Below the pieces are notes generated by a model, which saw nothing but the letters and a program-made list of their open reading frames with translations, searched no databases and was not told where the DNA came from. A stretch of 64,000 bases of DNA from Paracoccaceae bacterium. Lineage in GTDB: Bacteria; Pseudomonadota; Alphaproteobacteria; Rhodobacterales; Rhodobacteraceae. The translations under genes were made by a program, and so were the position numbers. The stretch is from assembly GCA_028285485.1 (NCBI GenBank), contig JANQPC010000100.1, forward strand, positions 62,001 through 126,000. Reading direction: 5' to 3'. This document shows positions 9,097 through 11,583 of the stretch, one piece after another. How positions within the stretch are numbered: the first letter of the stretch is position 1; each line of letters begins with the position of its first letter.

Positions 9097-10584
9097 TCAC
9101 ACCGCAAGTGTGGCATGAACCGCTTTTGTCCAACGATCCACCTTCAATGCCCTTAATTCGGGCGCCATTTGTGGCGTGAACTGGCGCTCCCGCGCCCAGG
9201 TTTGCGCGAATCCCTGCTGATCGGGGTAGACGCCCGCGCGCATTCCGGCGAGCCAGGCCGCGCCCAGCGCGGTTGTTTCAAGCACTTCGGGGCGGTCGAC
9301 CGGGGCGCCCAGAATGTCGGCCAGAAATTGCATTGTCCAATCGCTCGCCGTCATCCCGCCATCCACGCGCAACACGTTATCGCCGGTGCCGCCCGGCATA
9401 TCGGCCTTCATCGCCTCCAGCAGATCGCGGGTTTGAAAGCCCACGCTTTCAAGCGCTGCCCGCGCCAGCTCCGCGGGCCCCGAATTGCGCGTGAGCCCGT
9501 AAACGGCGCCCCGGCATTCGGCATTCCAATAGGGGGCGCCAAGCCCGGTGAAGGCCGGCACAAGCACCACATCCTGCTGCGGGTCGGCGGCTTCGGCAAG
9601 CGCCTGGGTTTCGCCCGCCTCGCGGATAATCTTCAGCCCGTCGCGCAGCCATTGCACAACCGCGCCCGCGATGAAGATCGAGCCCTCGAGCGCGTAGGTG
9701 CGCGTGCCGTCAAGCTGATAGGCGATGGTGGTCAGCAGGCGGTTTGAGGAGGCAACGGGGGTCTCCCCGGTATTGAGCAGCGCAAAGCAGCCCGTACCGT
9801 AGGTGGATTTCAGCATCCCCGGCGCGAAACAGGCCTGGCCCAGCGTGGCGGCCTGCTGATCGCCCGCGATCCCGAGGATCGGGATCTCGCGGCCGAAAAG
9901 ATCGGCGCGGGTCACCCCGAAATCGGCGGCGCAATCCCGCACTTCGGGAAGCATGGCGAGCGGGACGTTAAGCAGGCGGCAGACGTCCTCATCCCAGTGC
10001 CCCTCGCGGATGTTGAACAGCAGTGTGCGGGCGGCATTGGTGGCGTCGGTGACATGCGCCTTGCCGCCCGTCATACGCCAGACAAGGTAGCTGTCGACCG
10101 TGCCGAACAGCAGCTCGCCCTTCGCGGCGCGCTCGCGGGCGCCCTCAACGTGATCGAGGATGTAGGCAAGCTTGGTGCCCGAAAAATAGGGATCGAGCAG
10201 AAGCCCCGTACGCTCGGTTACCATCGGTTCATGGCCCGCGGCGCGCATCTCCGCGCAAAGCGGCGCGGTGCGTCGATCCTGCCACACAATGGCGTTATGC
10301 ACCGGTTTGCCGGTGTCACGTTCCCACACCAGTGTGGTTTCGCGCTGGTTGGTAATGCCGATGGCCGCAATCTCTCGCGCATCGATCGAGGCGCGTTCGA
10401 TCACCTCGCGGCATGTTCCGGCGGTGGTGGACCACAGGTCGGCCGGATCATGCTCCACCCACCCCGAATCGGGGAAGTGCTGCGGAAACTCCTCCTGCGC
10501 CACGGCCGCGATCTTCATCGCCTCGTCAAAGAGGATCGCGCGGCTCGATGTCGTGCCCTGATCGATCGCCAGAATATAGGTCAT
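9097..10584 (-). CDS. glpK: Glycerol kinase GlpK
   Basis: FGGY-family kinase converting glycerol to sn-glycerol-3-phosphate. 495 aa starting [20 protein letters not shown], the ATPase phosphate-1 motif of the family, with the C-terminal [10 protein letters not shown] region intact. I used ATG 10584 because a strong ribosome site (CAGGGAGGACAG) lies just upstream. The frame is open farther upstream, but that sequence does not look like kinase. No glpF, glpD or glpR is nearby; instead it leads into the glycogen genes. Its ribosome site is an exact complement of a motif in the candidate small RNA upstream (see 10783-10922). Confidence 0.96.
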
Positions 10585-10782
10585 CCACTGTCCTCCCTGC
10601 CGGCGGGCCCGGCGCCTTATTTGTCTCCCCAAGCCCCAGGTATCGCGCCCGAAGCGACCAAGCGCAACGGGGCGGTGGGCCTGTGCGGCGGCGCAACACT
10701 GTGCCGATCCTGCAACGGCGCGGGGCGAGCCGACAGGTCGCATGCACCAAATTGCGAAAGCTGTGATAGATGTTCTGTGTTG
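10585..10782. other. Intergenic region upstream of glpK
   Basis: Gene-free DNA between glpK (minus) and the candidate small RNA (plus). It must hold the glpK promoter and, if the RNA is real, the RNA promoter. No convincing sigma-70 pair is visible on either strand. A TTGCGA at 10752-10757 is a possible plus-strand -35, but no good -10 follows at 16-18 bp. The open frame extending glpK upstream through this region shows no recognisable domain. Confidence 0.5.
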
Positions 10783-10922
10783 GTGTTGGTGCTCTGGTTT
10801 CGGGCGCTCCCTGCGATACCCCGAATGCTAGAATTCACGCACCCACGTGTTTCCATGGCCGTTGGCCATGCATATGGTTCCTCCCTGACTGGACAGGCCG
10901 CACTTCGGTGCGGCTTTTTTTT
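10783..10922 (+). ncRNA. Candidate trans-acting small RNA with two CTCCCTG anti-SD motifs
   Basis: Seen directly: an outer stem pairs 10783-10792 with 10839-10848 (one mismatch, two G-U). Inside it, TTCGGG 10799-10804 pairs with CCCGAA 10820-10825, exposing CTCCCTG (10807-10813) in the loop. A second hairpin, CATGGCC-GTT-GGCCATG, spans 10854-10870. An unpaired linker carries CTCCCTG again at 10881-10887. A Rho-independent terminator closes the unit at 10897-10922. No plus-strand gene precedes the terminator. The layout recalls alphaproteobacterial AbcR and CcsR RNAs, which expose CUCCC motifs to block ribosome sites. The 5' end is unknown and no promoter was found. A cis-regulatory or remnant origin is possible. 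Confidence 0.55.
10897..10922 (+). terminator. Rho-independent terminator
   Basis: Perfect 7-bp stem GCCGCAC/GTGCGGC (10897-10903 and 10908-10914) with a stable TTCG tetraloop, followed by eight T residues (10915-10922). The T run is only on the plus-strand side, so it ends a plus-strand transcript. The T run touches the stop codon of the minus-strand SRAP gene. Confidence 0.88.
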
Positions 10923-11583
10923 ATCCCGCGAGCGGTTCGATCAGAGCGGCGCCGCTGGCGCGGTTCGAATTCACCGCCGGATCCACCCGGTGGAAGGCAA
11001 AGGCCGCCTCCACGGCCGCGCGCATCAGGGGCGCCGCCCCTTTGCCCGCCTCACCCAGCCAAAGGGGCCAATCAGCGGGATCGATCGACACGGGCATGCG
11101 GTGATGGATGGCCGACATTGTCTGGTTGGCCTTTGTGGTGACAATGGCGCAGGTGGTCAGTCGCTCGTCCCCTCGGCCCCAAACCTGCCAGACGCCCGCA
11201 AAGGCGATCGGTGCGCCATCGGCGCGGTGAATATACCAGGGCAACCGGTTGCCCTCGGTATCCTTTGTCCATTCAAAAAAACCGGTGGCGGGGATCAGGC
11301 AGCGCCGTTCGCGGCAGGCGGCGCGGAAGGCCGGTTTTTCGGCGATGGTTTCGGCGCGGGCGTTGATCAGAAGCGGGCCATCGTTTGGCGCCTTGTACCA
11401 ATGGGGGATAAATCCCCAGCGCATCGCCACAAGGCGGCGCGACTCGCCCGGCACGATCACATGAACGGTGTTGGTGGGGCAGACGTTGTAATTCGGCACG
11501 TGCGGCAGATCGTTCGCCGGCGCCGCCTCGAACAGCTGCGCCATGGCATCGGGCGGGAGGGTGATTGCGAACCGGCCGCACAT
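10921..11583 (-). CDS. SOS response-associated peptidase (SRAP, YedK/HMCES family)
   Basis: SRAP-domain protein of 220 aa, the usual length. YedK/HMCES proteins form a protective thiazolidine crosslink with abasic sites in single-stranded DNA through Cys2. That Cys is present (MCGRFA), as are the active-site Glu104 in GFFEW and His160-His161 in AIHHRMPV. It follows the 5'-nucleotidase on the same strand after 38 bp, with a GC hairpin between them (11594-11613). No LexA box is recognised upstream and no clear ribosome site precedes ATG 11583. Confidence 0.93.
   Translation of the reverse strand: MCGRFAITLPPDAMAQLFEAAPANDLPHVPNYNVCPTNTVHVIVPGESRRLVAMRWGFIPHWYKAPNDGPLLINARAETIAEKPAFRAACRERRCLIPATGFFEWTKDTEGNRLPWYIHRADGAPIAFAGVWQVWGRGDERLTTCAIVTTKANQTMSAIHHRMPVSIDPADWPLWLGEAGKGAAPLMRAAVEAAFAFHRVDPAVNSNRASGAALIEPLAG

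Follow-up and report, generated by a model that had tools for sequence, protein, structure and literature searches.

The 140-nt plus-strand segment at 10783-10922 of the window (the whole 64,000-nucleotide stretch of Rhodobacteraceae DNA analysed here) very probably encodes a genuine small RNA (sRNA), which belongs to an RNA family that had not been described before and is absent from Rfam. The sequence-only reading of this DNA had proposed a new plus-strand sRNA with exposed anti-Shine-Dalgarno (anti-SD) motifs and its own terminator; covariation, box conservation and synteny now bear out such an RNA, with one of these motifs, and show it to be conserved in relatives. Every element that it had listed is present at the position given, and its observation is confirmed, mostly beyond chance. 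As it had also noted, no plus-strand gene precedes the RNA: glpK and an SRAP gene, the two neighbours, both lie on the minus strand, and the plus-strand terminator therefore has no protein gene to end. At the gathering score, Rfam gave no match within the window, no DNA similarity of the locus to plasmids was found, and when the locus was compared with 60 relatives by BLAST, matches were confined to the box and terminator at its 3' end. The features of the locus from glpK to the SRAP gene are as follows:

9097-10584 (10584 down to 9097), minus strand: glpK, divergent neighbour in this genome (Pfam FGGY_N and FGGY_C)
10582-10599, minus strand: glpK ribosome-binding site CAGGGAGGACAGTGG-ATG (CAGGGAGGACAGTGGATG), a 9-nt perfect complement of UCCUCCCUG
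10849-10922, plus strand: conserved sRNA core made up of GUUUC, 5' hairpin, linker, anti-SD box and terminator (covariance model R1, 79.6 bits)
10854-10870, plus strand: 5' hairpin CATGGCC-GTT-GGCCATG, whose sequence varies and whose pairing is kept in relatives
10880-10894, plus strand: single-stranded box CCUCCCUGACUGGAC, predicted anti-SD seed, from the invariance of CCTCCCTGACTGGA in model matches
10895-10922, plus strand: intrinsic terminator with a 9-pair stem (10895-10916) and eight Ts (10915-10922), from terminator scan, fold and covariation
10924-11583 (11583 down to 10921), minus strand: SRAP gene (YedK, SOS-response-associated peptidase), convergent neighbour (Pfam PF02586, 4.9e-69)

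The conserved core and its distribution

The full 140 nt folds at -55.9 kcal/mol (z -3.4), and the fold of the core has a mean z of -2.7 over 28 loci. Scanning the region for terminators gave 5 terminator-like sites where 0.7 would be expected. Both the strong plus-strand intrinsic terminator and the second, perfect hairpin at 10854-10870 that had been described from the sequence stand up to comparison with relatives. In the relatives' alignment, the terminator stem is 98.5% paired with covariation, and all 5 modelled pairs of the 5' hairpin are changed on both sides, with 75% of cells paired. When both stems are taken together, 12 of the 14 pairs show changes on both sides, and every measure of covariation exceeds all 500 shuffles (0/500 as high), with slid controls far lower. 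These figures come from an alignment fitted to the structure, and the seed alignment made with MAFFT leads to the same verdict.

The box of the window copy reads CCTCCCTGACTGGAC. The second CTCCCTG (10881-10887), which had been reported in an unpaired linker, is indeed there and exposed, and it forms part of a longer conserved box, CCTCCCTGACTGGA[C/T]. Among model matches that had not been picked by the exact box, CCTCCCTGACTGGA is invariant and a C/T change affects the last base only. Since the members that the model found and the exact pattern missed (L148, L153 and L158-L161) keep CCTCCCTGACTGGA, with only the next base altered, the invariance of the box is not a mere search artefact. An exposed C-rich seed and an intrinsic terminator with a U tail, the hallmarks of the anti-SD class of trans-acting sRNAs, are both present, and this RNA is predicted to block the translation of target mRNAs, probably with Hfq bound, as a member of that class.

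A covariance model built from 16 sequences yielded scores of 52-85 bits in 25 of 395 Rhodobacteraceae genomes (about 6% of those sampled). Below a gap, from 43 bits downwards, come copies that are degraded or resemble SorX/SorY, and in 240 alphaproteobacterial genomes from beyond the Rhodobacteraceae nothing scored above 40.5 bits. The exact sequence CCTCCCTGACTGGAC occurs in 21 of the 395 genomes, the reversed pattern giving one match. Named carriers include Psychromarinibacter sediminicola, Candidatus Rhodobacter lobularis and a Maritimibacter MAG. Covariance searching of related genomes, which had been suggested for the DNA upstream of glpK, recovered the stems of the 3' half and the second CTCCCTG, not the outer stem or the first CTCCCTG, and the conserved neighbour proved to be SRAP instead of glpK. 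Indeed, the SRAP gene lies downstream and convergent, as in the window, in 14 of the 25 genomes (G383 being counted through its matching contig L075), mostly 1-700 nt off and up to 1.7 kb away; glpK is found about 2-3 kb from the RNA in two relatives and is not adjacent in most. Two further SRAP-adjacent copies (L165 and L099) have degraded boxes, which indicates that the element can be lost or drift. Together, these results define a well-bounded RNA family new to Rfam, in a bacterial family with few understood sRNAs.

Could the conserved letters serve something other than a plus-strand RNA? On the minus strand, AGGGAGG is followed by ATG in many copies, so that the box might serve a small protein as its ribosome-binding site (GTCAGGGAGG...ATG); we rejected this open reading frame, to which we give next to no credence, because the frames run from 4 to 43 codons with unrelated sequences and because the U-tract and covarying terminator lie on the plus strand in every copy. 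That the segment is a terminator remnant or a chance C-rich sequence without function would fit its non-conserved 5' half, but is very improbable in view of the covariation, the invariant box and the conserved neighbourhood.

The 5' part and the start of the transcript

Upstream of the core, three further features were distinguished:

10698-10777, plus strand: block ACTGTGCCGATC-TGCAACG ... TTGCGAAA-CTGTGATA, from local alignments with L142, L144 and L143; likely promoter region
10783-10848, plus strand: 5' stem with the first CTCCCTG (10807-10813), z -3.6 here and no structure there in relatives
10829-10834, plus strand: TAGAAT, a candidate alternative -10 element judged from its sequence and from a position resembling the -10 of other members

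The outer stem (10783-10792 with 10839-10848) and the inner hairpin displaying CTCCCTG, both part of the earlier description, are present and stable in this genome; what they lack is a counterpart in the nearest relatives, where the stretch matching the first CTCCCTG and the outer stem is unstructured. Over 28 loci, the 66 nt upstream of the core average a z of -0.4, against -2.7 for the core, and the window copy is the outlier at -3.8. The first motif and the outer stem are thus peculiar to this genome, and a conserved 5' stem was rejected. An architecture of two CTCCCTG motifs therefore does not hold as the defining feature, only the second being conserved. As a separate observation, L158 also carries a second CTCCCTG just before its 5' hairpin, upstream of position 1579 on the minus strand, as in the window.

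The block at 10698-10777 is common to the three nearest relatives despite different upstream genes. It contains CTGTGATA, a possible -10 element at 10767-10772, from which transcription could start near 10779 and yield an RNA of about 144 nt. A start near 10841 directed by TAGAAT, which is not conserved in the nearest relatives, would give an RNA of about 82 nt. Depending on which of these two lengths applies, transcription may take in the first motif and outer stem or leave them out. It is on these elements that a different view of the molecule would be built, in which the functional RNA is the whole 140 nt and both CTCCCTG motifs are redundant, as in AbcR or NfeR1. We consider this unlikely, although it deserves more weight than the other alternatives discussed here: the unusual stability of the 5' stem and the conserved upstream block with its possible -10 element speak for it, whereas the nearest relatives have unstructured leaders devoid of the 5' stem and first motif, and the conserved core begins only at 10849.

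Kinship with SorX and SorY, and comparison with other anti-SD RNAs

In a relaxed Rfam search, the best matches of the window RNA were SorX (RF02784; 29.8 bits, E 2e-5) and SorY (RF02651; 28.9 bits), both short of the curated cut-offs (46.6 and 111 bits, respectively). They come out best because of a shared CCUCCCUG-(n)-UGGAC stretch between hairpin and terminator. Like the window RNA, SorX and SorY of Rhodobacter sphaeroides, a member of the same bacterial family, consist of a 5' hairpin, a single-stranded CCUCCCUG-(n)-UGGAC box and a strong terminator. The window RNA differs from them in having AC for U before UGGA, in its SRAP neighbour and in coexisting with SorX-type copies in the same genome. 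SorY has a promoter to itself, and SorX arises by cleavage of the 3' UTR that follows an OmpR-type gene (PMC6238624); unlike the 3'-UTR-derived SorX, the window RNA has no preceding plus-strand gene.

A loose box pattern was found in 143 of 149 Rhodobacteraceae genomes, with CCTCCCTGTTGGAC in most of the matches listed. SorX and SorY are thus part of a larger set whose members share a single, near-universal box. Three loose-pattern copies lie elsewhere in the window's genome, namely a SorX (L035, 76.7 bits), a SorX/SorY-like copy and a copy under the cut-off; the SorX-type copies of this genome reach only 26-33 bits with the covariance model of the new family. The resemblance of the box, the missed Rfam cut-offs and the SorX-type copies elsewhere in the genome lead us to regard the window RNA as a new paralogue of the SorX/SorY kind. 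Were it instead a diverged SorX or SorY orthologue with a function in singlet-oxygen resistance, the same type of box, the same layout and the Rfam scores would be accounted for. We judge this improbable, since both scores lie under their cut-offs, since a clear SorX copy and a second SorX/SorY-like copy already exist in the same genome, and since the window RNA has its own box (ACTGGA for TTGGAC), its own SRAP neighbour and a gap in model scores that sets it apart.

Copies that share the seed lie under different promoters, which makes it testable whether sibling anti-SD RNAs differ mainly in timing. Two side observations concern other members of the set. In the window's genome, contig C91 (L038:1470-1545, genome G000) carries a CCTCCCTGTTGGAC hairpin-box-terminator unit that scores 36.5 bits with SorX (below cut-off) and 32.6 bits with the new model, and is possibly a further undescribed sibling outside the new family. 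Pairs of CCTCCCTGTTGGAC 140-223 nt apart (G172:C3:795436/795576, G022:C183:9555/9778 and G021:C398:4999/5173) suggest tandem SorX/SorY-type sRNA genes.

The CcsR RNAs, which the sequence-only reading had also named, may resemble the window RNA as C-rich sRNAs of the anti-SD type. CcsR1-4 of Rhodobacter sphaeroides are processed as a group from the ccaF1 3' UTR (PMC8625941), whereas the window RNA is a single gene with no plus-strand gene upstream. AbcR1 and AbcR2 of rhizobia use anti-SD motifs to silence the mRNAs of livK and other substrate-binding proteins, and together with NfeR1 they carry their anti-SD seeds (e.g. CUCCUCCC) in unpaired regions (PMC8844928). The window RNA has no sequence or Rfam match to these RNAs and possesses one conserved anti-SD box against their two or three; AbcR (alpha-r15) was not among the Rfam matches listed, even at E up to 5. 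The sequence-only reading was thus right to recognise neither AbcR nor CcsR, given the missing AbcR match, the single conserved box and the lack of a CcsR-type tandem origin. The AbcR/CcsR-like architecture that it saw holds as far as an anti-SD motif with a terminator is concerned; the box CCTCCCTGACTGGA[C/T] links the RNA to SorX/SorY instead.

Predicted targets, mechanism and control

The reading that we favour, and hold to be probable, is that the segment encodes a trans-acting sRNA of an undescribed SorX/SorY-related family that silences uptake mRNAs via CAGGGAGG sites. The RNA would be transcribed from its own promoter and end at the intrinsic terminator, at 10922. Its 5' hairpin and terminator would protect the molecule and keep the box UUCCUCCCUGACUGGAC single-stranded, and Hfq would probably bind the U tail. 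The seed CCUCCCUG in the box is predicted to pair with CAGGGAGG-type Shine-Dalgarno sequences; with the Shine-Dalgarno sequence covered by the box, the ribosome would be unable to start and the mRNA would be silenced or degraded. Like AbcR, the RNA probably acts mainly on substrate-binding proteins and further subunits of ABC and TRAP uptake systems.

The complement of the seed, CAGGGAGG, is a strong Shine-Dalgarno sequence and stands near the ATG of 22 genes in the window's genome (genes of at least 60 codons), including seven substrate-binding proteins, one TRAP DctQ subunit and one glpK. What counts against the target reading is that an anti-SD sequence rich in C, whatever its origin, pairs with numerous ribosome-binding sites. 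Transport genes make up 8 of the 22 genes with CAGGGAGG against 3 of 20 with the control AAGGGAGG (p = 0.11, not significant), an excess that is suggestive only. Among the relatives, two genomes have GTCAGGGAGG ahead of a LivK-type gene, and in G164 the longer site stands before a DctP gene, with a 16-nt match. As for glpK, its ribosome-binding site matches UCCUCCCUG perfectly over 9 nt and only about 22 genes have such a site, as a specific regulator of this adjacent gene, not a broad one, would lead one to expect. Such a dedicated role is nevertheless quite improbable: glpK does not adjoin the RNA in most relatives, and as a conserved target it is not supported, with CAGGGAGG in just 1 of 23 other glpK genes examined.

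The broad uptake regulator that we favour may be controlled differently in different clades. In about 12 of the 28 members, the promoter has GCC-N8-GCC followed by TA exactly 12 nt on. PMC9731502 cites N-GCC-N8-GCC as the consensus for ChvI of S. meliloti; the CenR site TGA-N8-TGA (PMC9275681), also considered, is a different motif from GCC-N8-GCC. The envelope-stress regulator ChvI probably activates the RNA in about half of the relatives, whereas this genome and its nearest relatives would use a different promoter: the DNA preceding the window copy yielded no ChvI-type site (best score -7.4, null p 0.84), and the closest relatives are also without one. In the subgroup L149, L150, L152, L153 and L158, a palindromic element of the GGCACAAATTTGCC type, GGC(G/A)CA-AT-TTGCC, replaces the ChvI-like site about 105 nt upstream of the core, which indicates that different clades have come to regulate the RNA differently.

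Caulobacter crescentus ChvR, an 84-nt sRNA activated by ChvI, is similarly short, has a promoter of its own and is predicted to form three hairpins (PMC6237742); its ChvI control is paralleled by the ChvI-type site in roughly half of the new family. It differs in having one known target (chvT), in being Hfq-independent and in lying beside recF, and the window copy has no ChvI-type site. Tentatively, the family might be an envelope-stress sRNA of the Rhodobacteraceae, AbcR-like and induced by ChvI across many genera so that nutrient uptake is shut down. It would then be a functional counterpart of ChvR with a separate origin in the SorX/SorY stock, and the clade of the window would have rewired it to another regulator; we regard this as less likely than not.

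The promoter motif in relatives also predicts a ChvI regulon in Rhodobacteraceae. In 14 genomes, the pattern GCCNYANNNTYGCCNYAWT gave 33 matches against 0 for the reversed control. Its other matches (L168-L197) precede a D-Ala-D-Ala carboxypeptidase gene, an OmpA-family gene and a repeatedly found small membrane protein gene, and these loci before envelope genes are candidates for that regulon. In three genera (L193, L173 and L175), a small conserved membrane protein with no Pfam match, about 100-120 aa long, is encoded downstream of a ChvI-like motif.
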